Shown one piece after another: positions 2,806-43,200 of a stretch of DNA of 64,000 nt. The notes below the pieces were generated by a model. The model had not been told where the DNA came from. It saw only the letters and a program-made list of their open reading frames with translations, and ran no database searches. Source of the stretch: Halorhodospira halochloris (GTDB lineage Bacteria; Pseudomonadota; Gammaproteobacteria; Nitrococcales; Halorhodospiraceae); assembly GCF_002356555.2 (NCBI RefSeq), contig NZ_AP017372.2:1302001-1366000 (forward strand). Direction: 5' to 3'. The position numbers and the translations under genes were made by a program. Position 1 is the stretch's first letter. Every line of letters begins with the position of its first letter.

Positions 2806-2808
2806 CGT

Positions 2809-4266: not shown

Positions 4267-4333
4267 GACTATCTTACCTTTTGAGCTTGTTGCATGTCCG
4301 GGGCTGGTTGTGCCCCATGGTTTTAATGATTTC

Positions 4334-4349
4334 TGCAAGTAGCGTGCCG
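4334..4349 (-). promoter_or_regulatory. Sigma-54 (-24/-12) promoter for nifEN
   Basis: On the minus strand the sequence CGGCACGCTACTTGCA matches the RpoN consensus TGGCACG-N4-TTGCA with one mismatch, including the critical GC and the correct spacing. It sits about 70 bases upstream of the chosen nifE ATG. This fits NifA-dependent control, but no TGT-N10-ACA NifA site was found up to 4700. Confidence 0.7.
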
Positions 4350-19335: not shown

Positions 19336-19347
19336 TGAGGCTTGCAT

Positions 19348-21134: not shown

Positions 21135-24100
21135 ATGGCAAATGATGAATTATGGTACAAAGATGAGGGCTTCTGGTTTAACGGGGAGGCCCACGACGAC
21201 TCCGTAAGGGATCTAGCGCTCGGCCATGAGATACTTTATAGCGCTAGCGACGACGGCACCGTAGGTTTCTTTGACCGCGAGACCGGCGAGCACCTCGGCT
21301 CTTGGGAATATGGGTCTGAACTCGACAAGATACGCGCTGTAGAGGTAACCGAAGGTTACGTCTACATGGCGGGTACTACGGGCAATATATATCGCGCCGA
21401 GAAACCGACAGATTTAGAAGATATTCAGCAGCCGGATGATGATGAATTCATCGAGTTTGAACCTAATTACGATCAGTATGGAGTCCACGATCTGGCCATC
21501 GACTATGATGATCCGGAACTGTACGCGGTCGGCTATGATGGATCTGTGCGTGCCTACAGCACAGATCTTGAGAAAGAATGGAAAAAAGAAGATGTCCATG
21601 ATCACAGCGACAGCGGTGATGGAGATGGCCGAGGAGTAGTTTCCGTAGAACTGTCCGATGATGGCGGTACGGTATTTAGCGCTGGTCACAACGGTCGCAC
21701 GATTGTTGCTCAGGACGCCGAGAATGGCGAAGAAAATTGGACGGTCTCGCTGGACGACGTTGACGATGATACACCCGGCGATATTGTGGACATGGCGCTG
21801 GCGGGTGACGTGCTATCGGTGATCAGCTCTAAAGGCAAGTACTATGAGTTTGATACTAATGATGAACCAGAAGAGCCGATTTACGAGTACCAGTATCACA
21901 CCGATTTTGAAATTCGCTCCGTTGATGCTATACCAGCTCCATGGTCGCCCGAAGATTGGGGTGATGAGTACGAAGAAATCTCATCATCTTTGCATTTTGT
22001 GGGTGCTGGTCCAGTCTTATTGGAGGGGGGTGAGGGATCTCTCGAGCTGTACATGGGGCACATTGGAGATGATCATCCTCATCCTTACGAAGATGAGTAC
22101 ATGTACCCTATTATGCTTAACACATATTACTGGGATCCGGACGACTTCGATCCGGACGACTTCGATCCGGAAGATATAGATGATTCCCCTGACCTGCAGC
22201 AGGATCCCGCCGAATTCAAGATAACTCAAGGACCTGAGCTGGATCCGGAGACAGTGGAGTGGGGTGATTCTTTCGATATCACCAGTAAGGTTAAAAACTC
22301 TGGTGAGATGGTGGGTGATCAGGAAGTTTCAGTCAGCGTATCCGGCAAAGAAGTTTACGCAAAAGAACTTGAGCTTGATGGCGGGGAAAGCTCTGAGATC
22401 AGCACTACGGTCGAAACTGACGAATGGGACTGGCTGATTGAGCCGGGCGATTATGAGGTTGCGATAAACACAGAGGATGACTCGGCTACTAGTGATTTGA
22501 CGTTAGAAGCCCCATCCGATTTCTATCGCGTCAGCGATGAAGATGATCTTCGTCAGGCATTGGCAGATGAAGACGGTCTCGCCGAAGATACTCTTGAGAT
22601 ATGGATTGATGGCGAGATATCGGTTTCCGAATCTCTTACTTATGATTTGGATGTTGACCTAAAAATTGAAGCAGTGGGATCCGAAGCGGCTCTGTCAGGC
22701 GATGGCGATGGGCGACTTCTGGATGTCACTGGGGCTCCTGAGAAGGTCGAGATCGATGGTGTCGATCTTCGCGATGGCAACGCCGAACATGGGGGAGGGG
22801 GCGCAATACGCGCTGGTAGCACGGAAGAACTCCACCTCAGTGATATGGAACTTAATGGCAACGAGGCAATGGCCGGGTACGGCGGCGCCGTGCAGGCCCG
22901 CTCGGTGATAGCTGAGCAAGTCTACTTCAATGATAACGAGGCGGTGGCCGGTGGCGCTATCCACCAGAATGGCTGGAGCAATCAGAGCCTAGAGCTTCAT
23001 GAGGTGGTATTTGAAGGAAATGAAGCTATTACCCGAGGCGGTGCCATCAAGACCCGGAGGGCCGATCTGGACCTTGACCGCGCCGCCGTCAACTCTGGCA
23101 ATGAGGCTGGAATAGCAGGGGACGCCTTATACACGCGCCTCGGTGACCATACCGGGGATATCGAAGGAGATTCGATTGGGGATAGTGCCGGGAAAGAATG
23201 GGGAACGGCGGATGTAGAGATTGATTTTGAACTGGCAGATGAATACTCGGTAGATTTTGGTGAAACGAAAGAGGTAACTGTTGCCACGCTTGAGAACGAT
23301 GATGGGGAATTCCTCGGCAGCCGTAATATAGAGCTTGAAATAAACGGTGAAAAAAAGCTATTTGAACGTGGCTGGGTTGATGTTGAAGATTCCGAGACTA
23401 TAAGTTTTGATGTTGATACTGAAGAGCTAGCACTACAGCCAAGTGTTTACGATATAACATTGCGCACCCCGGATGGTACGAAAGACGATCAAGCGGAGCT
23501 GATAGTCGTGCCAGGAGATGATTTTAGTCTGGATGGAGAAACATTCTACCTTTTCGGTGAGGAGGACATCAGCATCGGTGAGGTTTTTGGTGCGCTTATA
23601 TTTGATGAAGGCAGTAAGCTGGATGCCAGTGACCTAAGCGGCGATCTCGATTTATGGATTGACCGAGAGAATAGCGATGATGGTGAATACGAGATACAGC
23701 TTGGACAAGGGCAAAACGAAGTTTATTTAGAAAATAATGAAGATGGTGGTGCCAAGTTTGATTTCTGGTTCGCTGATGCCCAAAGCACCGATAACGTGAT
23801 TCATGGCTTCACATCAGAAGATGTCTTGCACTTTGCCAGCATCGATGGCATAGATCCGCGCCAATTTGAAGAATATGAAAATGACGATTGGGATTGGGTC
23901 ATACAAGACGATGAAGGCAATAATCAGATTGGTATAAAAGAAGAAGATGCAGATATTGTGTTTGAAGTGGCAGGTGATGGTGAAGGCACATACGATTCTG
24001 ACGATGTGATCGTGACCTTAAAAGACGCATCCGAGGAATGGGATGGTGGTATATTTAGTGATAATATAATAGCTCTAATGGGAGATAATGGTGAGGCCAT

Positions 24101-25577
24101 TACTGCGTACGATGCGCAAGAAGTTAACGGAAAGGGTTGGGACTCATTAACCGGCTTTGGTGAGATCGAAATGGACGATGACGATAACAACAACACGCTG
24201 AAGATCAACGAGCTTAACCCCGATTTCACCGCTACTATCCACTCGCCGGATGAAACACTAGTTGGGTTAATTGCTGGGAGTGTTGAAACCGACGCCACGA
24301 ACTTGGATCTCTCCGGCAAAGATTCGGATATTGACGGCCCGATCACCTTCGACTTTAGTAAACACACTGAAAATTTCCAACTTTCTTTCATGTTTGATGA
24401 AGAAAACGATAATCACTACGAAGATATTAGAGTAAAAGGTTTTGACCACGGAAATGATGACTCTGTTTTTGAGTTCCATATTGATGTTGATACAGATTTA
24501 CCTATTATGGCTGAAGATGCTAGAGTCGAAAACGAAAACGAAGATTGGTTGGTCGTCTCGACGAATAATTTTGCCAGTGAGGAAGATCTGGCAATTAGGT
24601 TGGAGTCGGTTGGCGATAAAGGTGGTAACGCCGTCCTCGATTTGGAGTCCATGTTCACCTTCGATAAAGATTGGGGGGATGTCATCGGAGATGGAGGTGA
24701 TGTTGAAGAAGATAAGGTCGACGAGGTTAGTGCTAAATCGGGTGAAATAGAGCTTGTTGATGTTGATGCCACCGATATAACCAGTGATGACTTTTTCTCC
24801 CCAATAGTTGATTATGACGGCATTCTTACGGCGAGCCAAGTTAACGAATTTGGCTGGGGTAACATTACCGATGCTGACGGAATCATGATGGACGATGGCG
24901 ATAACGACACGCTGGAGATCGACGAGTTCAACTACGCTTGGGGCGGCGCCGAGATCTCGGATAGCATGGATCATAATAACACAGTGGCCCTTATTTCTAC
25001 CTCTTTGGAAGGTGACAGAACGGACCTGCATTTTACAGGTAATGACTCCGAGATTGGGGATTCAGATTCGATCACCTTCGACTTTAGAGATTACACGGAA
25101 GAAGGTTTCTTCTGTCTTGATTTCGTTGGTTATGGGAATAACGATTACTTTGAGGATATGATCATCCATGGTTTTGAGGAAGATAACTACAACAGCATCC
25201 TTGATTTCACCGCCTTGGAAGAGAACCAATACAGCCCCCCCGATCAGGAGGATATAGATTTTGATGAAATCGACTCTGTTGGCACCGTGAACGACGACGA
25301 GGGACAAGACTGGCTTGTCCAGTATGATGCTTCTGATGGAGGTCAATGGTTGGCGATTGCAATTGATGGCGATGAGCTTGACCTGACAAACGCTACCGTC
25401 GGATCTGATGACGGCAACCTTACGGATAATCTTAGCGATCTGGAGGAGGTCGATATGTCTAAAGGTGAAGAAGGTGGTGTAGGGGACCCAGTCGGAGCCC
25501 CTAACTCTGGAAGTATCAAGCTGGTTGAGGTCGGTTACGAAAATCTGACTGAGGATGACTTCATCCTCTACACTTGA
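21135..25577 (+). CDS. Giant acidic beta-propeller / beta-helix surface protein (1480 residues)
   Basis: I know no named family for the whole chain. Residues 1 to about 290 form WD40/PQQ-like blades (LYSASDDGTVGFFDRETGE, VFSAGHNGRTIVAQD). About 365-460 and 695-800 look like CARDB-type adhesion domains (GDSFDITSKVKNSGE; DFGETKEVTVATLENDDGE). About 465-690 is a right-handed beta-helix with GGAIRAGS, GYGGAVQARS and GGAIHQNG turns. About 1000-1480 carries two copies of a domain containing ITFDF, the motif YFEDMIIHGF or its variant, and DWLV. There is no signal peptide. Lack of Sec signal, extreme acidity and a nearby type I secretion operon suggest type I export to the surface; this is inference, as no RTX nonapeptides are seen. 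The leader GAACCTCGGGGGCAGCC before the ATG is shared with the paralogue at 51162. Confidence 0.6.
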   Translation: MANDELWYKDEGFWFNGEAHDDSVRDLALGHEILYSASDDGTVGFFDRETGEHLGSWEYGSELDKIRAVEVTEGYVYMAGTTGNIYRAEKPTDLEDIQQPDDDEFIEFEPNYDQYGVHDLAIDYDDPELYAVGYDGSVRAYSTDLEKEWKKEDVHDHSDSGDGDGRGVVSVELSDDGGTVFSAGHNGRTIVAQDAENGEENWTVSLDDVDDDTPGDIVDMALAGDVLSVISSKGKYYEFDTNDEPEEPIYEYQYHTDFEIRSVDAIPAPWSPEDWGDEYEEISSSLHFVGAGPVLLEGGEGSLELYMGHIGDDHPHPYEDEYMYPIMLNTYYWDPDDFDPDDFDPEDIDDSPDLQQDPAEFKITQGPELDPETVEWGDSFDITSKVKNSGEMVGDQEVSVSVSGKEVYAKELELDGGESSEISTTVETDEWDWLIEPGDYEVAINTEDDSATSDLTLEAPSDFYRVSDEDDLRQALADEDGLAEDTLEIWIDGEISVSESLTYDLDVDLKIEAVGSEAALSGDGDGRLLDVTGAPEKVEIDGVDLRDGNAEHGGGGAIRAGSTEELHLSDMELNGNEAMAGYGGAVQARSVIAEQVYFNDNEAVAGGAIHQNGWSNQSLELHEVVFEGNEAITRGGAIKTRRADLDLDRAAVNSGNEAGIAGDALYTRLGDHTGDIEGDSIGDSAGKEWGTADVEIDFELADEYSVDFGETKEVTVATLENDDGEFLGSRNIELEINGEKKLFERGWVDVEDSETISFDVDTEELALQPSVYDITLRTPDGTKDDQAELIVVPGDDFSLDGETFYLFGEEDISIGEVFGALIFDEGSKLDASDLSGDLDLWIDRENSDDGEYEIQLGQGQNEVYLENNEDGGAKFDFWFADAQSTDNVIHGFTSEDVLHFASIDGIDPRQFEEYENDDWDWVIQDDEGNNQIGIKEEDADIVFEVAGDGEGTYDSDDVIVTLKDASEEWDGGIFSDNIIALMGDNGEAITAYDAQEVNGKGWDSLTGFGEIEMDDDDNNNTLKINELNPDFTATIHSPDETLVGLIAGSVETDATNLDLSGKDSDIDGPITFDFSKHTENFQLSFMFDEENDNHYEDIRVKGFDHGNDDSVFEFHIDVDTDLPIMAEDARVENENEDWLVVSTNNFASEEDLAIRLESVGDKGGNAVLDLESMFTFDKDWGDVIGDGGDVEEDKVDEVSAKSGEIELVDVDATDITSDDFFSPIVDYDGILTASQVNEFGWGNITDADGIMMDDGDNDTLEIDEFNYAWGGAEISDSMDHNNTVALISTSLEGDRTDLHFTGNDSEIGDSDSITFDFRDYTEEGFFCLDFVGYGNNDYFEDMIIHGFEEDNYNSILDFTALEENQYSPPDQEDIDFDEIDSVGTVNDDEGQDWLVQYDASDGGQWLAIAIDGDELDLTNATVGSDDGNLTDNLSDLEEVDMSKGEEGGVGDPVGAPNSGSIKLVEVGYENLTEDDFILYT
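22134..22175 (+). repeat. 15-bp in-gene tandem repeat encoding DPDDF
   Basis: GATCCGGACGACTTC occurs twice in tandem, followed by a partial third unit ending in GAAGAT. It codes for the acidic linker DPDDFDPDDFDPED and keeps the reading frame, so unit number could vary by slippage. Confidence 0.85.
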
Positions 25578-25667: not shown

Positions 25668-26299
25668 TATATCTGGGCAATCGAGAGGTGATGATATGAA
25701 GCACACAGAGAGCCTTTGAGAAGAATAGCAAGCGGACATGCAGGGGTACATAAAGTGCTTACAAAAGCTTCTGTGAAGCTCTGTGAAGGCGAGAGAGGGT
25801 GATGTTGTTGGCTGCCAAAATCCGTACATATTTGGCGGAGGATTCAAGAATAAGCATATCTACTGGGTAGTTAAAAGCTAAGACTAACTACCACGCTCTG
25901 TGTCGATTTCTGCTTTCGTTTGTCCCTTCTTTTCCTTATAAACCAGTAACTGGCTCTGTGGGCCCTGTGGGCGAGAGCCCTGAGAGTGTGGGCAGGCGGT
26001 GGGCAACCCGCAGGGTTGTCCACGGGCTGTCCACACGGCCCGTAGGGCTCAGGGCGGCGCGAAGCGCTCGTCCACAAGTCCACAGAGCTATTGCTTAAGC
26101 AGCTAAAAGTACTGGAGATTTGCTTATAAGAGGGTGAGAATCGGTAGGCAAGTAGTAAGGGCGACGCGACATCAGGTAACCAGAGGCTGACAACCCTCCT
26201 GATGCCGCGCCCACCGCGTCCTGCGACACGGCACTTATCAGTATCCTCGGGTTTAGCGCCGTTGTCCAGTGTTTGCAATTTACCTGGATAAGCGCCCCG

Positions 26300-26800
26300 A
26301 TGAGCCAGCCTAAAGCATTGACCCGCCGACTTTTCTTTTGCGATTGCTGCAATCGACAGGTCATGATCTGCAGTCAATGTGATCGCGGCAATCGCTACTG
26401 TAGCCAGCAATGCGCAACTGCTGCCCGCCGCCAGTCCCTGCGCGAGGCGGGTAGGCGTTATCAAGACTCTAGGCGAGGCAAAGCCAAGCATGCAGAGCGC
26501 CAGAGTCGTTATCGAGCCAGGGCCCGGACTCGACCCCTATCCCTATCCCTAAGCCGAGACAAAAAAGTGACGCATCAGGGTTCCACACCTGTTGATAGTG
26601 ATGCTTCACTTAAGCTCTCGCAGCCAGATAACCAAGCTCGAGCACGGCCTGTTCAGCGGCCCGATTATCAGCAAGCGCGCCGACTCACAGAGAGCGCCCC
26701 GCGCTGTGACTTCTGCGCTCGCCCGTGCTCGGTATTTGTCCGCACAAATACCCTGCGCCGCTATTCTCGCCGCGAGCCGTTGCGCCCCTCGGGTCCCTGA
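26300..26800 (+). CDS. IS-borne zinc-ribbon passenger protein
   Basis: The 166-residue, Arg-rich protein has a clear metal-binding cluster near its N-terminus: FCDCCNRQ, ICSQCDRGNRYCSQQCA, and a second CDFCARPC motif near residue 135. Between them is a basic region (RRGKAKHAERQSRYRARAR). This type of small cysteine-rich ORF travels ahead of istA in some long IS21-type elements; its role, perhaps DNA binding, is not known. ATG 26300 is preferred to an in-frame TTG at 26273. It ends 81 bases before istA and is codirectional. Confidence 0.6.
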   Translation: MSQPKALTRRLFFCDCCNRQVMICSQCDRGNRYCSQQCATAARRQSLREAGRRYQDSRRGKAKHAERQSRYRARARTRPLSLSLSRDKKVTHQGSTPVDSDASLKLSQPDNQARARPVQRPDYQQARRLTESAPRCDFCARPCSVFVRTNTLRRYSRREPLRPSGP

Positions 26801-26881
26801 GATCCGGCGAGAATTGCCTTGCGCTAAGCCCGAGGCGCATGTTTCTGCGCTCATCTCGCCGAGCATATGGAGTGTAAGGAT

Positions 26882-28399
26882 ATGGCTATATCCAAAGAGC
26901 TTGAGGCGCAGATCATGCGCTATCACTACGCCGAGCACTGGCGCGTCGGCACCATTTCCCGACAACTCAATGTCCACACCGATGTCGTCCATAGGGTGCT
27001 GGCAAAGGCCGGTATCCCTAGTGCACAACGCACTAGGCGAGAATCGATCATTGATCCCTATGTACCCTGGATCGAGCAGACCCTGGCAGATTACCCCAAA
27101 ATACCAGCTAGCCGGCTCTATGAAATGGCCCGCGAGCGTGGTTATTCGGGCGGCCCTGATCACTTTCGCCACCTGATAAGCCAGTACCGGCCGAAACCGG
27201 TCGCTGAGGCGTATATGCGCCTGCGTACCCTGCCCGGGGAGCAGGCACAGGTCGATTGGGGCCATTTCGGCAAACTGCCCATAGGTCGGGCTAAGCGCCC
27301 ACTGATGGCATTTGTCATGGTCCTGAGCTATTCGCGCTGGATCTTTCTGCGCTTCTACCTCGGCTCATCGACGGCCAACTTTTTGCGTGGCCACGTCGCC
27401 GCCTTCGAGGCCTGGCAGGGGGTGTGCAGGTGCCTGCTCTACGATAACCTCAAAAGCGCGGTGCTGGAGCGCTACGCCGAACAGATCCGCTTTAATCCGC
27501 AGCTACTCGATCTTAGCGCCCACTACGGCTTTGAGCCACGGCCAGTAGCCGTAGCCCGAGGCAACGAAAAGGGCCGTGTCGAGCGGGCAATCCGCTACGT
27601 GCGTTCCAGCTTCTGGCCCGGTAGGCAGTTTAACTGCCTTGATGATCTGAACGAGCAGGCGCAGCACTGGTGCGTAAGCATTGCCGCCGAGCGGCGCTGC
27701 GATCAGGAGCAAAAGAGCAGTGTTCGCCAGGCATTTGCCGAGGAGCAGCCTTACCTACGTGCCTTACCCAGCGAGCCATTTCCTTGCTATGAGAACGTGC
27801 CTGTAAAGGTAGGCAAAACCCCTTATGTGCGCTTTGACCTTAACGACTACTCGGTGCCGCACGAATATGTCCGCAAAACGCTCAGCGTCAGCGCAACTCT
27901 GGAGAGGATCCAGGTGCTTGATGGCGAGAATGTTATAGCCTCGCATCCACGCAGCTATGATCGCCACGCTCAAATCGAGGACCCGCGCCATATCGATAAG
28001 CTAGCCCAAGAGAAGCAAGCTGCTCGACTACATCGTGGCACCGATCGGCTTAGTAGCTCTGTACCGCGCGCCAAGGAGTTTCTCTCGCAAGCGGCAACGC
28101 GCACCAACAGCCTCGGCAGCGTCACAGCTGCGCTACTTCGTCTGCTCGATCACTACGGCGCCAGCGAGCTCGATGCCGCCATTGAGCACGCTCTCGAGCG
28201 TGGTGTACCCCACCCACATGCCCTCAGCCAGATCCTCGAACAACGCCGCGATCAAACCCCTGGCCCGCCATCGCTGCCTCTGCGCTTACCCGAGCAGCTA
28301 CGTCAACGTGAGCCAAGCATCCGGTTGCGCGGGCTCGATGGCTACGACGCCCTAACTCCTAACTATGAGAAAGACGACAATGGCCCCGAAAACACCTGA
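26882..28399 (+). CDS. istA: IS21-family transposase IstA
   Basis: The 505-residue protein has an N-terminal helix-turn-helix (YHYAEHWRVGTISRQLNVHTDVVHRVL). An RNase H-like DDE catalytic core follows, seen as QVDWGHFG (first Asp), LLYDNLKSAV (second Asp) and ARGNEKGRVERAI (Glu). IstA binds the IS ends and catalyses strand transfer. ATG 26882 is favoured, with GGAG at 26869-26872; an in-frame ATG at 26867 has no ribosome site. It overlaps istB by about 35 bases, as usual for this pair. The frame is intact, so the element may still be active. Confidence 0.93.
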   Translation: MAISKELEAQIMRYHYAEHWRVGTISRQLNVHTDVVHRVLAKAGIPSAQRTRRESIIDPYVPWIEQTLADYPKIPASRLYEMARERGYSGGPDHFRHLISQYRPKPVAEAYMRLRTLPGEQAQVDWGHFGKLPIGRAKRPLMAFVMVLSYSRWIFLRFYLGSSTANFLRGHVAAFEAWQGVCRCLLYDNLKSAVLERYAEQIRFNPQLLDLSAHYGFEPRPVAVARGNEKGRVERAIRYVRSSFWPGRQFNCLDDLNEQAQHWCVSIAAERRCDQEQKSSVRQAFAEEQPYLRALPSEPFPCYENVPVKVGKTPYVRFDLNDYSVPHEYVRKTLSVSATLERIQVLDGENVIASHPRSYDRHAQIEDPRHIDKLAQEKQAARLHRGTDRLSSSVPRAKEFLSQAATRTNSLGSVTAALLRLLDHYGASELDAAIEHALERGVPHPHALSQILEQRRDQTPGPPSLPLRLPEQLRQREPSIRLRGLDGYDALTPNYEKDDNGPENT

Positions 28400-29159
28400 G
28401 CAGCAAATGATTGAGCGGGCCAAGGCCCTGCGCTTGCATGGCATCCTCGCCCACTGGGAAGAGATTGAGGATAAGGAGTGGATCGAGCAGATGCTGTGCT
28501 GGGAAGAGCAAGAGCGCACCCGCCGCTCTCTCGAGCGCCGCCTGAGCGAAGCACATATAGGGCGTTTCAAGCCGATGAGCGAATTCGATTGGTCGTGGCC
28601 TACTAGCTGTGACCGCGGCGCTATCAATGCCCTGATGAGCCTGGAATTCATCCCCGAGGCCGGTAATGTCGTCCTGCTCGGCAGTAATGGCGTCGGCAAA
28701 ACCATGATAGCCCGCAATATCGCCTACCAGGCGGTGATCGCCGGCTATACCGCGCTCTTTGTCAACGCCAGCACCATTCTCGCCGAGCTGGCCTCACAAG
28801 ACAGTGAGAGGCTACTCCAGCAGCGCTTTAACCGATTCACTAGGCCACGCTTACTGGTCATCGACGAGCTAGGGTATCTCTCCTACTCGACGCGTTATGC
28901 CGATCTGCTCTTCGAATTGGTCAGCCGCCGGTACGAGAAGAACTCTATTATCATCACCACCAATCGCCCCTTTAGCGAGTGGGGCGAGGTCTTCCCGAGT
29001 GCTGCATGTGTCGTATCCCTGATCGATAGACTGCTGCATAACGCTGAAGTGCTCGCCATAGACGGCGAGTCATATCGCTACAAGGAAGCTCAAGAACGCA
29101 GAAACACCCGAGAAGCTAAGCGCAAGTCCCCGAGCAAAAAAGCCAAAGCAGAGAGTTAA
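28365..29159 (+). CDS. istB: IS21-family helper ATPase IstB
   Basis: The 264-residue AAA+ ATPase shows Walker A LLGSNGVGKTMIARN near residue 105, Walker B LLVIDELGYLS, and IIITTNRPFSEW as sensor region. IstB assembles on target DNA and delivers it to IstA. Two starts are possible, ATG 28365 and ATG 28380; both overlap the istA 3' end, so translational coupling is likely. The basic C-terminal tail (KRKSPSKKAKAES) is typical. Confidence 0.93.
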   Translation: MRKTTMAPKTPEQQMIERAKALRLHGILAHWEEIEDKEWIEQMLCWEEQERTRRSLERRLSEAHIGRFKPMSEFDWSWPTSCDRGAINALMSLEFIPEAGNVVLLGSNGVGKTMIARNIAYQAVIAGYTALFVNASTILAELASQDSERLLQQRFNRFTRPRLLVIDELGYLSYSTRYADLLFELVSRRYEKNSIIITTNRPFSEWGEVFPSAACVVSLIDRLLHNAEVLAIDGESYRYKEAQERRNTREAKRKSPSKKAKAES

Positions 29160-29261
29160 TTTACCACCTGTAAGGAAAAGGACATGGCGGTGGATCTCAG
29201 AAACGTATTAGTATGTCTGAATCCTCCGCCAATTTTGTACGGTTTTCCAAAGCCGCTAACA

Positions 29262-29380
29262 CACTCGGCTACGCGCAGGTTTACCAACTGCTGACGGGCA
29301 TTCTCAGAGAGATCCCCCAGCTTGTACTCGACCCCATCAATCATGACCGTACGAGTCTGCTGCTCTTGCTCTTCTGCCAT
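29262..29380 (-). pseudogene. DUF6447-like small protein gene, truncated by the IS21 element
   Basis: From ATG 29380 the reading is colinear with the intact gene at 29820: TVMIDGVEYKLGDLSENARQ against TVTIDGTEYKIDEMSENARQ, and then QLVNLRVAE. Homology stops after about 39 residues, exactly where the IS end begins at 29261. The open frame runs on into IS sequence to 29156 and would add unrelated residues. The missing C-terminal half is not found on the far side of the IS. It lies 19 bases downstream of the 60-residue gene ending at 29400, so the two formed a small operon. Confidence 0.8.
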
Positions 29381-29716: not shown

Positions 29717-29761
29717 GAAGGCATGTTAAGAGGCCAAGGTCTCTCGCCTCAAGCGCTCATA
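29717..29761. repeat. 45-bp repeat, copy a (upstream of DUF6447/SapC/T1SS operon)
   Basis: GAAGGCATGTTAAGAGGCCA followed by AGGTCTCTCGCCTCAAGCGC and TCATA recurs at 36106-36150 with three differences. It ends 58 bases upstream of the DUF6447-like start, a position suited to a promoter or regulator site. Confidence 0.8.
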
Positions 29762-29819: not shown

Positions 29820-30032
29820 ATGGCTGAAGAAGAGACGCAGCAGCGTACTGTCACCATAGATGGTACCGAGTACAAGATTGATGAAATGAGTGAAAACGCC
29901 CGTCAGCAGCTAATCAACCTGCGTGTTGCAGATCAGGAGATCGCACGACTTAACCGCCAGCTGGCGATTACCCGCACCGCACGCCAGGCCTACGCCCGTG
30001 CGCTGCAAGGTGAATTGGGCAAATCACAATAG
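29820..30032 (+). CDS. DUF6447-family small protein
   Basis: The 70-residue protein contains RTVTIDGTEYKIDEMSENAR, then QQLINLRVADQEIARLNRQL and a basic helical tail. This small family tends to sit beside type I secretion genes; its role is unknown, and a helper or export-linked role is inference. ATG 29820 follows TAGGAGTCAACG. A truncated paralogue lies just to the left on the opposite strand. Confidence 0.65.
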   Translation: MAEEETQQRTVTIDGTEYKIDEMSENARQQLINLRVADQEIARLNRQLAITRTARQAYARALQGELGKSQ

Positions 30033-30162
30033 GCTTGCGGCAGGTTAGTTACTCCGAAGCCTCGGTGGTCAGCTATTGGCTACGAGACTTGGGAGGTCCC
30101 GGTTGTTAAGATTGAATTCGTCGCCTAAACGACGATCAAAAAACAAAACCTTCGCTGCAAGC

Positions 30163-30975
30163 ATGACTCAAATATCATCCTTAAAGCCGTTATCAGCAAA
30201 CAGGCACCGCAATACTTATTGGCAACGGGCCCGAGGTTATTTCCACGCCGCAGAGCATCACCTCGTCCCCGTTACCAGTCGGGAACTGCCCCGTGCGGTA
30301 GGCTCTTTCCCCCTAGTTATCACTCATCAAAAATCGGGTCCGATTTTACAGGCTTTGTTAGGGGTGGAATCTGGTCGTTCAGCCTTTGTCGATTCGCATG
30401 GGTGTTGGCGGGGAGGTTATGTTCCTGCCTACCTGAGAGCCTATCCGTTCTACTTGGTAGAAACTGCGCAAGATAAGCACGTCGTCGCTGTAGATGAGTC
30501 GTCCGCGGCATTACAGGCGGACGCCTATATCGGTCAGGCGCTGTTTACGGCAGATGATAAGCCTACACCGCAGTTGCAGAAGGTTATCGATTTCCTTGGT
30601 CAGGTAGCGCGCAACAGAGCTCTAACTGATAGGGCTTGTCGTAGTTTGGATGAGGCTGGAGTTTTGGAGCCATGGCCTTTGGAACTTGACATCGGTAATC
30701 AGCCATGGCGGTTTAGCGGATTGTATAGAGTCAGTGAGAAGCAATTGAACGCCCTCGAAGGCGCGGCTTTGCATGCATTGCGTGACACTGGGGCGTTGGG
30801 AGTAGCGTATGCCCAGCTTTTGAGCACTGGTCAGAAAAGCCGCCTTGAGGCTTTTGCTCGGGCGCGAGAGAATGAGCAGCGATTACCCGAGAGTGAGTCG
30901 GTTTTTACTGAGCCGGATCTTGAGGAGCGTATTGACTGGGATTCACTGGACTTCGATGAAGGCTACGAGGGCTAA
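30163..30975 (+). CDS. SapC-family protein
   Basis: The product (about 270 residues from ATG 30163) matches the SapC family linked to S-layer/surface-protein type I secretion. It shows RELPRAVGSFPLVITHQKSG, LLGVESGRSAFVDSHGCWRG and YVPAYLRAYPFYLVE in order, then the conserved FLGQVARNRALTDRACR. It has no signal peptide, so it is presumably cytoplasmic. The exact job of SapC is not established; a role in handling the exported surface protein is inferred from its constant neighbours. TTG 30076 would add 29 residues and is less likely. It is followed 35 bases later by the ABC exporter. Confidence 0.8.
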   Translation: MTQISSLKPLSANRHRNTYWQRARGYFHAAEHHLVPVTSRELPRAVGSFPLVITHQKSGPILQALLGVESGRSAFVDSHGCWRGGYVPAYLRAYPFYLVETAQDKHVVAVDESSAALQADAYIGQALFTADDKPTPQLQKVIDFLGQVARNRALTDRACRSLDEAGVLEPWPLELDIGNQPWRFSGLYRVSEKQLNALEGAALHALRDTGALGVAYAQLLSTGQKSRLEAFARARENEQRLPESESVFTEPDLEERIDWDSLDFDEGYEG

Positions 30976-31010
30976 TCACATTTCAATTATTCCTGCAAAT
31001 AGAGAGGCTC

Positions 31011-32717
31011 ATGGCCAATCCTCAGAATATTCAAGGAGCCGGCGCTAAGGCCAAAGGCGAGCTGCGCGAGTGCCTCGGCCAATTCAAGCAGTCCATAATC
31101 GCGGTGGCCGTATTCAGCTTCTTTATCAATCTACTGATGCTGGTCCCGCCGCTGTTCATGCTGCAGATGTTCGATCGGGTGCTCTCGAGCGGGAGCGTCG
31201 AGACCCTGGTCATGCTGCTGATAGTCGCGGTTGGCTTGCTGATCGTCCTGGGGTTGTTGGAGTTTTCGCGGAATCGGGTTTTGGTACGCGCTGGAGGCCG
31301 GCTCGATCAGATGCTCAGCTCACGGCTTTTCGACGCTACTTTCCTGCGGGCCTTGCGCCGCCCGGATAGTGCTACATCGCAGCCGCTGCAGGATTTGACC
31401 ACCCTGCGTCAGTTCATGACTGGTCAGGGCGTTTTCGCCTTTTTCGATGCGCCGTGGACGCCGCTTTTTTTGCTGGTTATCTTTTTGTTCCATCCGTGGC
31501 TGGGTATATTCGCAACAGCAGCGGCACTAATTTTGTTTACCCTTGCCTATATCAATGAGTTGATCACCCGCGAGCCGCTCGGCGCCGCCAACTCTCAACA
31601 TAACAAAGAGACCGATTTCACCAACAAAAACCTGCGCAATGCCGAAGTGCTCGAGGCCATGGGCATGACCGGCAGGTTGCGTCAGCGCTGGCAAACCATG
31701 CACTCCAATGTCCTCTCTTTGCAGGCCCTGGCTAGTGATCGCTCGGCAAATCTGACCTCGGCATCCAAATCACTGCGCCTGATTGCCCAGGTTGGTATTC
31801 TGGCTATGGGTGCTTATCTGGCAGTAGAGCAGATAATAACCCCGGGGGTGATGATCGCCGCCTCAATCATAATGGCCCGGGCTCTGGCGCCGGTGGATCA
31901 AGCCATGCACGCTTGGCGCGGCTTTGTCGGGGCGCGCAACGCCTGGCAGCGGCTCGATGAGGTGCTGCGCAGCACCCCGCAGCGGGCTGAGCACATGGAG
32001 TTACCACCCCCGCAGGGCCAGGTGACCGTAGAGAACCTAGTGGTTGTTCCTCCGGGTGGGCAGACTCCGGCCTTGCGCGGCATTAACCTAGAGTTAAACC
32101 CGGGAGACACGCTCGGTGTGATCGGGCCGAGCGCTGCCGGTAAATCGACCTTGGCTCGGGCCCTGGTTGGGGTGTGGCCTGCCTATGCCGGGGCGGTTCG
32201 TATCGATGGTGCCGAGATGGCGCACTGGAATCGAGAACAAATCGGCGCCTATATTGGCTATCTGCCGCAGGATGTCGAACTGTTCGATGGTACGGTTGCT
32301 GAGAATATCGCTAGATTCGGCGAGGTCGACTCGCAACAAGTAGTTGAGGCGGCGCGCAAGACCGGCCTGCATGAGATGATCCTGCGCTTACCCCAAGGCT
32401 ATGATACCTATATCGGGATAAACAGCGGTGCACTGTCCGCCGGACAGCGTCAGCGAGTGGCCCTAGCACGCGCCGTCTACGGTAACCCGAGCTTGGTAGT
32501 CCTGGATGAGCCGAACTCGAACTTGGATCAAGCCGGAGATGAGGCGCTGGTTAGTACCGTGCGGCAGTTGCGTGAGGATGGCTGCACGGTGGTGATGATC
32601 GCCCATCGACCGGCAATTTTAAGCGGCGTGGAGCAGGTCTTGGTGTTGCGCGACGGTAAGAGCGCAGCCCTCGGATCCCGTCAGGATATCCTTAACCGCT
32701 TGACCAAGGCGAGTTAA
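31011..32717 (+). CDS. Type I secretion ABC exporter (PrtD-type permease/ATPase)
   Basis: The 568-residue inner-membrane protein has an N-terminal ABC transmembrane domain (IIAVAVFSFFINLLMLVPPLF, LVMLLIVAVGLLIVLGLL and further spans to about residue 290). The ATPase domain shows Walker A GPSAAGKSTLARAL, signature LSAGQRQRVALARAV, Walker B VVLDEPNSNLD and the switch histidine in IAHRPAIL. It lacks a C39 peptidase domain, so it fits the PrtD/AprD group that exports proteins with uncleaved C-terminal signals. It begins an exporter operon with the HlyD- and TolC-type genes. ATG 31011 follows AGAGAGGC. Confidence 0.92.
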   Translation: MANPQNIQGAGAKAKGELRECLGQFKQSIIAVAVFSFFINLLMLVPPLFMLQMFDRVLSSGSVETLVMLLIVAVGLLIVLGLLEFSRNRVLVRAGGRLDQMLSSRLFDATFLRALRRPDSATSQPLQDLTTLRQFMTGQGVFAFFDAPWTPLFLLVIFLFHPWLGIFATAAALILFTLAYINELITREPLGAANSQHNKETDFTNKNLRNAEVLEAMGMTGRLRQRWQTMHSNVLSLQALASDRSANLTSASKSLRLIAQVGILAMGAYLAVEQIITPGVMIAASIIMARALAPVDQAMHAWRGFVGARNAWQRLDEVLRSTPQRAEHMELPPPQGQVTVENLVVVPPGGQTPALRGINLELNPGDTLGVIGPSAAGKSTLARALVGVWPAYAGAVRIDGAEMAHWNREQIGAYIGYLPQDVELFDGTVAENIARFGEVDSQQVVEAARKTGLHEMILRLPQGYDTYIGINSGALSAGQRQRVALARAVYGNPSLVVLDEPNSNLDQAGDEALVSTVRQLREDGCTVVMIAHRPAILSGVEQVLVLRDGKSAALGSRQDILNRLTKAS

Positions 32718-32768
32718 TTTGGGCTTAGCTAGGCTCAACACAGCTAACAGTGGAGTCATCTGCCCGAT

Positions 32769-34217
32769 ATGAGCAGGCACGACGATAATCATCAAGATAA
32801 CCAAGATCATGATCATGAGCGTGACGACCGCCTGCCACCTCAGCAAAACACTGCCTCACGCGGTTCCGAGCAGGCTCACAATGGCGAGTATCTGCCGGCA
32901 AGTGCAGAGGGTGGTTCAGCGTCGTCACAGCCGCCAACTAATGATCGCTGGCCGCGGCTGTTCGGCTTTATCGTAATACTCATCGCCTTCGGCGGAGTAG
33001 GCGGTTGGGCGAGCTTTGCCAAGATCGATGGGGCGGTAGTAGCCCAGGGCACGGTGACGGTCGACTCTTATCGGCAGACAGTTCAGCATCTCGAAGGAGG
33101 GATAGTAGAGCGGCTGCATGTGCGCGATGGCGATGTAGTCGAGCGGGGCGATCTGCTCATTCAGCTTGATGAAACGCAAGCTCGTGCCGAATATCTGATG
33201 AACTGGAGCCGGTATATCTCCGCACTCGCCCGTCAATCCCGCCTTGAGGCAGAGATCGAGGGGCTTGAGGAGATTGAGTTTGCCGAGCAGGTGCTAAGCA
33301 GTGCCGAGCAGAGTGAGCGTACGCAGCAGGTTAAGCGGGCGCAGCGACGCGAATTTGAAACCCGGCGCGATGCCATGGAAGGCGAGGTCGATGTGCTCAA
33401 TCAGCGCATTGAGCAGCTCGGTGAGAACATTGCAGGCATGCAGGCGCAGCGTGAGGCCAAACTGCGTGGCATCGAATCGCTTGAGGAGGAGATCGAGACC
33501 AAGGAGCGACTAGTAGAGCGTGAGGCAATACCTAGCTCCGAGCTGCGTCCACTCGAGCGCGAATTGGCCGCCATGGAGGGTGAGGTCGGCGAGTTGCAGG
33601 CCTCGATCGCCTCGGCACGGGTCGAGATCGGTGAGACGCGCCTACAGATAATTCAAACCGAGCGCGACTTTCATCGCGAAGTAGCTGCAGAGCTGCGCGA
33701 GACCTCTGATCAAGTTGATGAACTCGAAGAGGAACTGCAGGCCCTTGAAGATAGACTAGCCCGCAAACAGATAGTAGCCCCCGTAGATGGCGAGGTAGTG
33801 AATATGCAGGTCCACGCCCGTCGCGCGGTTATTCAAGGCGGCGAGCCGGTTCTCGACCTGGTCCCCGAAGATGAGCCGCTGATATTGGAAGGGCAGGTCG
33901 AGCCGCAGGATGTGGATAATGTCTATCCGGGGATGAGCGCAGATGTGCGTTTTACCGCCTTTAGTTTCCGGCGTACACCGGTGATTAGCGGCGAGATCAC
34001 CTTCGTCTCCGCCGATCGGATCGAGCCGGAGAATGAAGAGCCGTACTACAAGGTGCGGGCGATGGTAACCGATGAGGAGTTAGCCAAGCTCGGGGATGTG
34101 AGCCTGCGCCCGGGTATGCCGGCGGATATCATGATCAAAACCGGCGAGCGTACCCCGGTGCAGTATTTGGCTAAGCCGATTACCGATGCCCTGGCGCGCT
34201 CTTTCAGGGAGGATTGA
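32769..34217 (+). CDS. HlyD-family membrane fusion protein of type I secretion
   Basis: The 482-residue adaptor has an unusually long hydrophilic His/Asp-rich N-terminus (about 60 residues, HDDNHQDNQDHDHERDD). One membrane span follows (LFGFIVILIAFGGVGGWASF), then a biotinyl-lipoyl-like half (GAVVAQGTVTVDSYRQTVQH), a long coiled coil at about residues 140-340, and the second half (KQIVAPVDGEVVNMQVHARR). It bridges the ABC exporter and the TolC-type channel across the periplasm. The stop overlaps the ribosome site of the TolC gene. The charged N-terminal extension is odd and would be cytoplasmic. Confidence 0.92.
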   Translation: MSRHDDNHQDNQDHDHERDDRLPPQQNTASRGSEQAHNGEYLPASAEGGSASSQPPTNDRWPRLFGFIVILIAFGGVGGWASFAKIDGAVVAQGTVTVDSYRQTVQHLEGGIVERLHVRDGDVVERGDLLIQLDETQARAEYLMNWSRYISALARQSRLEAEIEGLEEIEFAEQVLSSAEQSERTQQVKRAQRREFETRRDAMEGEVDVLNQRIEQLGENIAGMQAQREAKLRGIESLEEEIETKERLVEREAIPSSELRPLERELAAMEGEVGELQASIASARVEIGETRLQIIQTERDFHREVAAELRETSDQVDELEEELQALEDRLARKQIVAPVDGEVVNMQVHARRAVIQGGEPVLDLVPEDEPLILEGQVEPQDVDNVYPGMSADVRFTAFSFRRTPVISGEITFVSADRIEPENEEPYYKVRAMVTDEELAKLGDVSLRPGMPADIMIKTGERTPVQYLAKPITDALARSFRED

Positions 34218-34218
34218 G

Positions 34219-35679
34219 ATGACAGGCAGGGGGCTGCGGCAGTGGCGTGCGGCGCTGTCTGCTTTATTCTTAGCGATCACTCTTATCCTACCGCTAAGTC
34301 TCCCAGCGCAGGGGCCAGAAGGTGGCTCGGTGGTCGCCGCTAACGAACTGCCGGCTTACGGTGCCGATGGACGGCAGGGCGCAGAGACCGAAGACCTGCT
34401 CGACATCTACCGTTTAGCCGAGCGGGCCGATCCGCAGTTGCGCGGCCAGCACTTAGAGCGTGAGGCGCTGCTCGAAGAACAGCGCGCGGCGCTAGGTGCG
34501 CTGCTACCTAGTGCCACGATCAGCGGCGAGATCCGCTATACCGATCGCGAAGAAGAACGCGCCGGTGCCGTGGCAGGAGAGACAGAGCGCACTTTTACCC
34601 AGCAGCAGTACATGGCCAACATCTCCCAGCCCCTTTTTAATTTACCAGCTTGGCACGAGTGGCAGGCGAGTCAGCACTCCTCCAGGGTGGGTGAGGCAGA
34701 ATTGGAGATGCGCCGCCAGGAGTTGGTTCATCAGGTGGCTGAGGTCTATCTAGGCGTACTCAGCGCCCAGTCGAATCTCGCCCTGCAAGAGCGCGAGCTT
34801 GAGGCCGTCAGCGCGAGCCTGAGACAGGCGCAAGCGCTTCATGAGGAGCGCGAGATCGCCCCGAGTGAGTATGAGCAGGCCCGGGCGCGGCACGATAACG
34901 TCAAGGCCGAGGTGATCCGCGCTGAGGGCGAGCTGGAGATCGCCCTCGAAGAGCTCTCCGAGCTGACCGATAGCGAGCACCGCTATTTGGCCGAGCTGCG
35001 TTCTGAGGCTGAGCTGCCGCGCCTCGACCCGTTAGAACTAGATGAGTGGCTGGAGCATGCCTATGCCGGCAACCCTGAGTTGCTTGCCGCCCGCGCCGAA
35101 CTTGACGCTCAGGGCCGGCAAGTGCAAGCGGCTGCCGGTCAGCGCTACCCGAGCGTCGATCTGGTCGCCGGCTATACCCGCTTTGATGACGCCGACGATG
35201 TCGATATGGACGATCCTGATTATGACGCTGGAGAGCAGACCGCACGGACACTGGACGATTACTACATCGGTGTGCAGATGCAGATGCCGCTCTACCAGGG
35301 CGGTTCTGTGGGCGCACAACGGCGCAGCGCCGAGCATCGCCGCGATCGGCAGCGCACCGAGGTTGAGCGTGTCCGCCGAGCCGTGCGAGCTCAGGCACGC
35401 AGCGCCTATCAGGGCATTATAAGCGGCAGCAGCGAGATCGAGGCCTACAGAGTTGCCGTACGCTCCGGCGAGCGTACCGTGGATGCCATGGCTGCCGAGG
35501 TCGAGCTGGGTACACGTGATGTTACAGACCTGCTGGAGGCGCAGCGCGAGCTTTTCGAGTCGCAGCGCAACCTCTCCCAGGCGCGCTACGAATACCTGCT
35601 CAACACCCTTGAACTGCGGCGCGCTGCCGGTCACCTGAGTGCTCAGGACATAGTCGCGCTTAATGAGCTATTCGAATGA
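34219..35679 (+). CDS. TolC-family outer-membrane channel of type I secretion
   Basis: The 486-residue protein has a signal peptide (LSALFLAITLILPLSLPAQ) and two outer-membrane-efflux-protein repeats rich in coiled coil. The first includes LLDIYRLAERADPQLRGQHL and AALGALLPSATISGEIRY. The second includes ELLAARAELDAQGRQVQAAAGQRYPSVDL and DVTDLLEAQRELFESQRNLSQARYEYL. It forms the exit duct of the exporter. ATG 34219 is preferred to an in-frame start at 34186: GGGAGG lies 6 bases upstream and the gene starts 1 base after the HlyD stop. An acidic insert (DDADDVDMDDPDYDAGEQ) is consistent with a halophile. Confidence 0.92.
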   Translation: MTGRGLRQWRAALSALFLAITLILPLSLPAQGPEGGSVVAANELPAYGADGRQGAETEDLLDIYRLAERADPQLRGQHLEREALLEEQRAALGALLPSATISGEIRYTDREEERAGAVAGETERTFTQQQYMANISQPLFNLPAWHEWQASQHSSRVGEAELEMRRQELVHQVAEVYLGVLSAQSNLALQERELEAVSASLRQAQALHEEREIAPSEYEQARARHDNVKAEVIRAEGELEIALEELSELTDSEHRYLAELRSEAELPRLDPLELDEWLEHAYAGNPELLAARAELDAQGRQVQAAAGQRYPSVDLVAGYTRFDDADDVDMDDPDYDAGEQTARTLDDYYIGVQMQMPLYQGGSVGAQRRSAEHRRDRQRTEVERVRRAVRAQARSAYQGIISGSSEIEAYRVAVRSGERTVDAMAAEVELGTRDVTDLLEAQRELFESQRNLSQARYEYLLNTLELRRAAGHLSAQDIVALNELFE

Positions 35680-35703
35680 TATCCAACCAGGAGATGAAAA
35701 CAG

Positions 35704-36060
35704 ATGCGATTGACAATCAGCGATGACTCAGGCTGTTTTTCCAAGAATTTGCTCCTGCGTATGACCTATCCCGCACAGGCGCTGTTGCTGAGTATTTGCG
35801 CAGCGCTTGCAGTGGTTAGTGGCTGCGCTTCGCCGAGCGCGACACCGGTAAGCCTGGATGATGGTCAGAGAGGGCATCTGATTGTCTGCGATGGTATGCG
35901 CTTGTCAGCAATCGATTGCATCAAGCAGGCCAACGAGCAGTGTGATAATGACTACGAGGTGATCGCTACTACTGGTGAGTGGCCGGAGGGGCAGGGAGTT
36001 GCCGGGGTGCTCAAGCACTTCGACCGGGCTATGGTTATAAGTTGTCTTGACGGTGGATAG
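35704..36060 (+). CDS. Small Cys-containing lipoprotein at end of secretion operon
   Basis: The 118-residue product has a hydrophobic segment ending in a lipobox-like VVSGC (ALLLSICAALAVVSGCAS), so the mature form would be a lipoprotein of about 77 residues with three further Cys (IVCDG, IDCIKQANEQCDND) plus one near the end (ISCLDGG). ATG 35704 has AGGAG at 35690-35694; ATG 35761 would give a more standard signal length. I do not recognise the family. It is 24 bases after the TolC gene, so probably in the same operon. Confidence 0.6.
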   Translation: MRLTISDDSGCFSKNLLLRMTYPAQALLLSICAALAVVSGCASPSATPVSLDDGQRGHLIVCDGMRLSAIDCIKQANEQCDNDYEVIATTGEWPEGQGVAGVLKHFDRAMVISCLDGG

Positions 36061-36105: not shown

Positions 36106-36150
36106 GAAGGCATGTTAAGAGGCCAGTGTCTCTCGACTCAAGCGCTCATA
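36106..36150. repeat. 45-bp repeat, copy b
   Basis: Same 45-bp sequence as at 29717-29761 with three differences and in the same orientation. It lies 50 bases upstream of the frameshifted ORF at 36201. The two copies bracket the SapC/type I secretion operon. Confidence 0.8.
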
Positions 36151-40202: not shown

Positions 40203-43200
40203 ATGGAAAATAAAAAAGGCTCCAAGTGCGGCTGCCTAAGCGCTAAGTGCAAATTGGACCTGCTCCAGCAGGTCAGTGGAATCGGCTTTTGGGAATATGA
40301 CCTGTGCACCGGGCAGGTCAATGCCGATGCGCAGTGCCAGAGTCTATACGGTTATGACAATAGCGAGTCCGAGCGCAGCCTCGCTACAGACTATGCGCTT
40401 TGGCGTGAGCATGTGCATCCTGAAGACCTATCATGGGTAGAAGAGGAGGTACAAGCCGCCATAGCCAACGGACAGCCTTGGCGGTTCACATATCGGATAT
40501 ACCGCAGTGATGGCCAATTGTGCTGGCTGCACTCAAGTGGCCACCTCGAGCGCGACGATCAGGGTGAACCCTGTCTGCTCATTGGTTTTGAACAGGATGT
40601 TACTGCTCAAAAACTTCAGGAGCAGGCGCTAGAGCAAGCTCACGAAAGGCTGCAAAGGGCTGAAGAGATAGTCTCTTTGGGCCACTGGATCTCCTATCCT
40701 GCAACAGGAGAGCTGATCTGGTCGCCTATGACCTATCAGCTTTGCGGTTTCCCTGCCGAGGCCGAACCGCCGGGCTGGGAAGAGTTTATCGCCCGGATAC
40801 CGGAGCAAGATCGCCATCAGGTAGCCGAATATCAGCTGCAGTCGAAAGCCGACACCGACCAGAGCCAGGGTGAATACCGGATAGTCCACCCGAATGGGCG
40901 CGTGGTATGGGTGCGGGAAATAGCCAATCGCTGGCAAGACGAGAACGGCCGGTGGATCATCCAGGGGACCATCCAGGATATCACTGAGCAGCGCGAGGCG
41001 TTGGAGCGTAGTGAGGCGCGCCGGCAGCGGCTTGAGGCTATCCTGGAGACGATTCCCGATGTAGCCCTAACTGAGACGGATCTTGAGGGTACGATTCGCG
41101 AGGCGAGCCGCAGCGCCGAGCGGATATTTGGCTACTCGCGTGAGGAGTTGCTCGGCAGTGATATCTGCATGCTCCACGATCCGGCTGAGCATGCGCGGGT
41201 GCGCGAAGGTATCGCTAGATTGCAGCGCACCGCTCAGGGTTACTCTGTGGAATGTGAACTGATTCGCGGCACCGGCGAGCGCTTTCAGGCGCAGCTGAGT
41301 GTCGCACCGCTACTCAATGAGCGCGGCGAGGTGGTAGGTAAAATCGGGGCCTGTATCGATTTATCGGCGCAGTTCGCCGATGAGCAGCGCCTGCGCATGG
41401 CCCAGGAGGCGGCCGGCTTCGGGGTCTGGGACTGGGATCTAGCGGCGGATCAGGTCTACTGGGATGAGGCGTGCTGGCGTATGCTCGGCTACGATCCCGA
41501 GCAGCAGAGTATTCTGACCTTTGCCGACTGGCAGAAATTCGTCCATCCCGAGGATCTAGAGCGGGTCCAACCCATCGTTGAGAGCCATTTGGCTGCAGGC
41601 AGTCCGTTCACCATCGAGCTTCGCTACCGCTGCGCCGATGGTAGCTGGCTTTGGGTGCAGGGCCGGGGGCAGACCCTGCGCCGTGGCGCCGATGGTTCAC
41701 CGACCTACATGGTCGGTACCCATGTCGATGTCCAGACCCTCAAGGAGACTGAGTTCGCGCTGCGCCGTAGCGAGTTGGAACTCACTGAGGCTAAGCGCAT
41801 AGCCCGACTCGGTCACTGGCTCTACGACATAAAGTCTGGGGATGTCCACTGGTCGAGCGAGATCTACGAAATTATTGGTCTGGAGCCGGCGGAAACGGCC
41901 ATGGACTGGGACACCTTTCTCTCCAGAGTGCCGCCTGAAGATCACCCTGAGCTCTATGAGGCCATAGAGCGCACTCTAAACCGGGGGGATCCCTACGAGC
42001 TTGAGCACCACCTCATGAGTGTGGATGGCGGTCGGCGGATTGTGCAGGCCCGTGGCTATGCGGAGTTTGATGCAGCCGGGAATCCGCAACTTCTACGCGG
42101 TACGGCCCAGGATGTCACCGAGCAGCGGGTTCTGCAGCGCGAACTTGCCGAGCGCGAGGCGCACTACCGGGATCTGGTAGAGAACCAACCGCTGATGATT
42201 GAGCGCTTTCTGCCCGACACCACGGTCACCTACGCTAACCCTGCCCTTGGGGATTGCCTCGGTGTGGAGCCGGAGGCGCTGATTGGCCAGCGCTGGCTGG
42301 ATTATTTACCTGCCGAGGAGCGTGAGAACATCGAGGCGCACTTGGCGGGCTTCACTCCGAGCCATCCGGTTAGCCAGTTCGAGAACAGCATGCCGGGCAA
42401 GAACGGTATGCAGCTCTGGACGATGTGGACTAACCGGGCCTTTTTCGATGAAAAAGGGGAGTTGAGCCATTTCCAATCGGTAGGCGTAGATATCACCGCA
42501 CGCCGGCGCGCCGAGCAGGCCGAGCAGCAGCTACGCGAGCAGCTTGAGACAAGGCAAAAAGAGCTCGAGGCGATCTTCGCGGCGGCCCGCTCGGTCAGTC
42601 TCATCAAGACTGATCTCAATTCAGTCATCGAAGAGGCCAGTACTGGTGCAGAAGTACTGTTCGGTTATTCGCGCGGGGAACTTATTGGTCAGCACGTCAG
42701 CTTACTGCATACGGCAGAGGACATTGAGCGGCTTCCCGATTACGTCGAGAGATTGTTTAAGGACCATGAGCCGATCCGCATGGAGACGGATCTAGTCTAT
42801 CGGGATGGTAGTCGTTTTCCCGCGCTGTTTACGGTGCACCCGATCACGGATGGTCGAGGTGCAATGGTGGCCACGCTCGGCGTCAGTCTCGATATGAGTG
42901 CCCAAAAGCGCGTTGAGCAGGAACTCGCCGACACTATACGCGCGAAAGACACCTTCCTCAGCGCCGTCAGCCACGACCTGCGCACGCCGCTAAACGCCTT
43001 GATGGGCTTTCTTGAGCTGCTCGATGATCCGCAAATTTCACCCGAGCAACGCTCTGAGTACATGGAGCAATGCCGGCAAGGAGCACAGCGGCTTCTCGGC
43101 CTGATTGAGACTCTGCTCGATCTCGCCCGTCTTGAAGCCGGTCGTTTGGAACTGCGCCCACGAGCAACCGAGTTGCCTGCACTGATAGACAACCAGGTTG

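Follow-up and report, generated by a model that had tools for sequence, protein, structure and literature searches.

Genes of the exporter operon and its surroundings

The window analysed here is a 64,000-nucleotide stretch of the Halorhodospira halochloris genome, positions 1302001-1366000 on a single 2,834,560-base contig. Six closely spaced genes are located on the + strand at 29820-36060 of the window. All six genes of the one-direction operon claimed by a sequence-only reading of this DNA were found there.

29820-30032, + strand: DUF6447-like small protein, 70 aa, first gene of the operon (PF20045, 25.6 bits, E 1.1e-5)
30163-30975, + strand: SapC family protein, 270 aa (PF07277, 198.2 bits, profile positions 1-220 of 220)
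31011-32717, + strand: type I secretion ABC transporter, PrtD type, 568 aa (TIGR01842 type_I_sec_PrtD, 749.6 bits; curated NCBIfam cut-off 510)
32769-34217, + strand: HlyD-type periplasmic adaptor, 482 aa (TIGR01843 type_I_hlyD, 386.6 bits; curated NCBIfam cut-off 209)
34186-35679, + strand: TolC-type outer membrane channel, 497 aa (TIGR01844 type_I_sec_TolC, 286.6 bits; curated NCBIfam cut-off 225)
35704-36060, + strand: small putative lipoprotein, 118 aa, last gene of the operon (lipobox-like VVSGC, by eye)

The ABC, HlyD and TolC scores are all above their cut-offs, and the operon has the sapCDEF-type order, SapC followed by three exporter genes. The DUF6447-like protein scored 25.6 bits against a curated gathering cut-off of 27, while its homologue in the related genome G002 scored 32; it is 64-73% identical to relatives in G002 (two) and G009. 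The ABC protein is 81% identical to its counterparts in G002 and G009, and the HlyD and TolC proteins are 71% and 66% identical to those of G002. The small lipoprotein matched no Pfam or NCBIfam family and has relatives in G002 and in G009, in the latter adjoining the ABC gene. The ATG at 30163 is more likely to be the start of SapC than the ORF start at 30076 because the alignment of relatives begins there. The first ATG of the TolC gene gives a 32-base overlap with the HlyD gene. The AlphaFold2 model of SapC (pLDDT 83.4) matched no PDB fold at E<=0.001, and the SapC profile matched no PDB sequence at E<=0.1. The promoter and terminator scan gave no excess over shuffles. A 45-base direct repeat (93%) is present on both sides of the operon, at 29717-29761 and 36106-36150. 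The right copy lies within a 168-base stretch that recurs behind DUF6447 in G002 (92% identical) and at G000:C1:1071353 in the window's own genome (77%).

The operon had also been described as lying between two giant protein genes.

21135-25577, + strand: giant acidic protein P0001, 1480 aa, candidate substrate (homology to P0003)
51162-53819, + strand: giant acidic protein P0003, 885 aa, best candidate substrate (tail profile rank 1 of 152)

Giants do stand on either side, but the description holds loosely, for they are 4.2 kb and 15.1 kb away and the intervals hold a transposon, kinases and other genes. The remaining ORF of more than 1000 aa in the ORF list (40203-44081) encodes a PAS histidine kinase. 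Further features of the window, and pieces of the operon duplicated elsewhere in the genome (loci L014 and L015), are as follows.

1420-4338, - strand: two adjoining nitrogenase component 1 type oxidoreductases
25790-29264: IS21-type transposon between P0001 and the operon (istA 26867-28399, Pfam; istB-like 28365-29159, by eye)
29264-29380, - strand: 5' remnant of another DUF6447 gene, which breaks off near 29264
L014 1168-6208: tandem pair of similar PQQ/WD40 proteins, called at 763 and 761 aa (identical in 655 of 781 alignment columns)
L015 3928-4377: partial operon duplicate, first 150 residues of the ABC protein
L015 8864-9061: partial operon duplicate, DUF6447 copy

The oxidoreductases are possibly subunits of a dark-operative pigment reductase. 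The transposon ends may be two similar inverted sequences recognised by eye close to 25790 and 29255. The first ~38 residues of the remnant match DUF6447 and are followed by unrelated sequence beside the transposon. The second SapC of the genome, beside two propeller proteins at L014, was considered as a second substrate cluster and dropped, because it is part of a copy of the window's DUF6447-SapC pair that is truncated at the 3' end (DNA 92% identical across 1030 bases) and because the propeller proteins carry, close to their starts, stretches that look like Sec signals by eye. A transposase gene lies further along L014.

The giant proteins and their C-terminal tail

P0001 is laid out as a WD40/PQQ-like N-terminus, marginal PMP-type repeats and a duplicated C-terminal module, and its final residues are ...SGSIKLVEVGYENLTEDDFILYT.

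24675-24803, + strand: second, internal copy of the tail-like module in P0001 (tail alignment A4, E 5.4e-12; this module was itself one A4 row)

P0001 and P0003 are 47% identical in their WD40/PQQ-like N-terminal regions, 79% identical over 234 residues of the middle part, where PMP-type repeat matches are marginal, and 48% identical in the C-terminal module. Both have a pI of 4.05 and one cysteine; the 12 giants examined have pI 4.05-4.24 and 0-1 Cys. By eye, no Sec signal is visible at the N-terminus of either protein, and RTX repeats (PF00353) were not found in them by Pfam. Acidity, one cysteine each and the lack of a visible Sec signal agree with what is seen in S-layer proteins but prove nothing. 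The N-terminal part of the P0003 model is of moderate confidence and was matched by Foldseek to beta-propellers such as BamB (among the matches listed, E 3e-9 to 6e-8 and TM-score by target length about 0.3-0.5). The whole model is poor (pLDDT 44.5) and was used for this match only. P0003 had no match in the plasmid collection.

Some giants of relatives end in a tail of roughly the form L.L.GV, then later [DN]F. With a loose pattern for this tail 22 of 762 genes matched, where shuffled tails gave 12 on average; this was too weak, and a profile was used instead. For its training, ten giants located near SapC or DUF6447 in genomes other than the window's were selected by eye, and the 30 C-terminal residues of each were taken. 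When the 152 window ORFs of at least 80 aa were searched with the profile, P0003 came first (E 3e-6) and P0001 fourth (3.0 bits). The best match among the non-giant ORFs had E 0.43, which bears out the earlier statement that the window offers no better substrate candidate than the giants. P0003 was also the top match outside the training set among 1315 ORFs of at least 200 aa in the loci searched.

The tails were then held out by genome. The 13 set members were scored against 1303 background tails, from which set members were excluded, and 1000 shuffles; the loci are bounded by contigs, and genes running off a contig end on the 3' side are omitted from the tail sets. For P0003, 0/1303 background tails and 0/1000 shuffles scored as high. 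Five other tails also did well (G002a, G002c and G260a, 0/1303; G002b and G258, 2/1303). Four were intermediate, G333 with 9, G008 with 14, G009 with 16 and P0001 with 22 of 1303, and three failed or nearly failed, G376 with 29, G260b with 80 and G308 with 154. Judged by these sequence scores, the tail motif is real for part of the set, P0003 included. The tail of P0001 is weak by itself, as 82/1000 shuffles also scored as well, and P0001 joins the putative tail-bearing cargoes by its homology to P0003.

Seven tails were searched against 12 family genomes, and the strong matches, in the four SapC genomes only, were the input rows themselves. A weak match of tail alignment A4 (E 0.29, one of several weak ones) fell on the exact C-terminus of a 1059-aa giant of G002 that is outside A4; held out, this tail gave 0/1303 and 0/1000. 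In the window's own genome (G000), apart from the two giants, no match of the tail search was better than E 0.27, with sensitivity limited by a short query and a loose first look. Two tails from a Rhodospirillum rubrum plasmid failed the profile. A strict tail pattern, composed post hoc when all tails including these two had been seen, matched 7 of 15 set members, both R. rubrum tails among them, and 0/1303 background tails; neither P0001 nor P0003 matched it.

P0001, whose tail is weak by itself, might instead belong with the two genes before it.

17890-19335, same direction as P0001: TPR protein with probable barrel (TPR families in Pfam; barrel by eye)
19342-21000, same direction as P0001: FecR protein

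All three genes have the same orientation and are separated by 6 and 134 bases, and the TPR and FecR proteins begin with stretches that look like signal peptides by eye. P0001 would then exit through the barrel protein and not through the type I exporter. We consider this highly improbable. P0001 has no visible Sec signal, P0003 carries a homologous C-terminal module yet no such gene pair precedes it in the ORF list, and the barrel was read by eye where Pfam matched TPR families only.

Giants and companion genes in relatives

DUF6447 is present in three of the 12 family genomes (G000, G002 and G009), the exporter ABC (E<=1e-60) in the identical three, and SapC in these and G008. A P0003 query found relatives in G000 only and no homologue in the other 11 genomes, some of which are fragmented or incomplete (family genomes 77-100% complete), so that absences are soft. 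On the exporter contig of G002, a CAP-domain protein and several giants come after the exporter, and DUF6447 is encoded there too; one giant lies immediately upstream of DUF6447 and ends LLLVGVGLDELHEDNFDFA. SapC of G002 is on contigs other than the exporter's. In G009, a 1113-aa RTX-bearing protein stands between SapC and DUF6447, and in G008 a DUF4214 protein of 1304 aa is encoded 3.9 kb away from SapC. A different neighbouring substrate in relatives had been named as evidence against the giants. Literally, other giants do stand there; however, part of them have the common tail, and for this reason we read the swap of giants as a change of cargo. Giants without the exporter, the other observation named as adverse, were not seen in the 12 family genomes.

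Type I exporters serve unlinked substrates too. The exporter might serve other substrates elsewhere in the genome, an S-layer-like or RTX protein for example, with the giants exported otherwise or intracellular. Giants without detected homology to P0003 do lie next to the exporter or its companions in relatives. This explanation seems unlikely to us, as P0003 bears the tail, the own-genome tail search, within its limited sensitivity, brought up no further strong match, and the 1059-aa S-layer-like giant of G002 has no homologue in G000.

In the class, DUF6447 was found in 6 of 369 genomes, and in four of these six, the window's included, a PrtD-like ABC gene (E<1e-100) lies within about 10 kb. 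SapC was found in 53 of 369 genomes at 72 places. The surroundings of all 72 were surveyed, about 10 kb in each direction or up to a nearer contig end, and 3 of them contained an ABC gene of this PrtD-like kind (E<1e-100). Because of this difference (4/6 against 3/72), DUF6447 and not SapC looks the better marker for a PrtD-type exporter, on small numbers. The premise that SapC-type operons export S-layer-like proteins does not survive as a general one, given the few SapC places near such an ABC gene and a DUF6447-SapC pair on a plasmid. This two-gene pair (L138 8729-9795) is on a 36.8-kb plasmid of Pseudomonas canadensis, where no type I exporter is annotated among the 39 listed features of a possibly incomplete gene table. 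G260 has an RTX protein next to DUF6447, SapC and the exporter. On the R. rubrum plasmid DUF6447 has an RTX protein as its neighbour, SapC at a distance of about 9 kb and a type I exporter at about 4 kb. When a TonB receptor of one SapC locus was used as query, 1 of the 72 SapC loci matched, its own, and this query does not support a general link of SapC with receptors. We found no paper on DUF6447, on SapC with DUF6447 or on 'SapC family protein' in the open-access full-text literature. A 401-aa trypsin and Calx-beta protein occurs near DUF6447 in three genomes (G229, G308 and G333).

L041 3691-4896: 401-aa trypsin and Calx-beta protein
L042 15436-16641: 401-aa trypsin and Calx-beta protein
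L045 5219-6424: 401-aa trypsin and Calx-beta protein

The plasmid pair, the 3 of 72 SapC places and the separate contigs in G002 would also fit SapC and DUF6447 being a two-gene module of their own that stands upstream of the exporter by chance. We find this doubtful, since four of the six DUF6447 genomes of the class have the PrtD-like ABC gene nearby and the identical SapC-ABC-HlyD-TolC order recurs in Alcaligenaceae.

Known systems and the proposed export route

The operon resembles the PrtD/E/F (AprD/E/F) systems for metalloproteases in having an ABC protein without an extra N-terminal domain (by Pfam), an HlyD and a TolC protein. In contrast to them, no RTX protease adjoins it, the candidate cargoes have no RTX repeats by Pfam, and SapC, DUF6447 and a lipoprotein are added. 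In Campylobacter fetus, the exporter is SapDEF. The S-layer export locus of that species is described as sapCDEF with sapA/sapB copies (PMC4943207), and the present operon shares with it a SapC gene together with three exporter genes, a likeness of gene order. It differs in having two propeller/beta-helix giants as candidate cargoes and no large sapA family. The S-layer locus Metal_0877-0880 of Methylomicrobium album BG8 encodes a PrtD-family ABC protein, HlyD, TolC and the S-layer protein (PMC13274458), and is likewise a gammaproteobacterial PrtD-family exporter, there directly adjoining a giant surface protein. The S-layer was demonstrated in BG8, whereas here it is hypothetical; SapC is not mentioned in the text of that paper (PMC13274458). 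Chromatium okenii, also a purple sulfur bacterium, has SapC and a SapDEF-like exporter, which lie apart by their locus tags, and its SapC is reportedly homologous to HH1059_1773 of H. halochloris (PMC6374484).

The simplest account of the locus is a PrtD-type exporter whose giant cargoes are exchangeable and here are probably P0003 and P0001; we assign this account a probability of roughly 0.7. The choice of the giants as the window's best substrate candidates is supported by the tail of P0003, which resembles those of giants adjacent to DUF6447 or SapC elsewhere, and by the homology of P0001 to P0003. Counting against this account, the operon and P0003 are 15 kb apart, two genes with signal-like starts precede P0001, and the giants and the exporter are not co-conserved in relatives. 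The operon supplies all parts of a PrtD-type type I secretion system, with inner-membrane ABC protein, HlyD adaptor and TolC channel. The ABC protein would recognise an uncleaved C-terminal tail of both giants, and the giants would be threaded unfolded to the outside in one step. The acidic propeller/beta-helix proteins may then remain on the cell surface of this halophile or in its matrix. From gene neighbourhood we guess that SapC and DUF6447 may act on the cargo in the cytoplasm as partner or chaperone and that the lipoprotein may help at the outer membrane.

More broadly, and quite tentatively, DUF6447, often with SapC, might mark type I exporters of Proteobacteria whose giant cargoes have little in common besides a short tail, so that exporter and tail stay while the giant passenger (propeller/beta-helix, RTX, DUF4214 or S-layer-like) is swapped between species, with DUF6447 and SapC possibly being dedicated cytoplasmic cargo handlers. 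Substrates of type I exporters that have no RTX repeats are difficult to find by sequence. The combination of a DUF6447 neighbour and the short tail could help to track down giant surface proteins without a recognisable family, and a functional hint for DUF6447 would follow.
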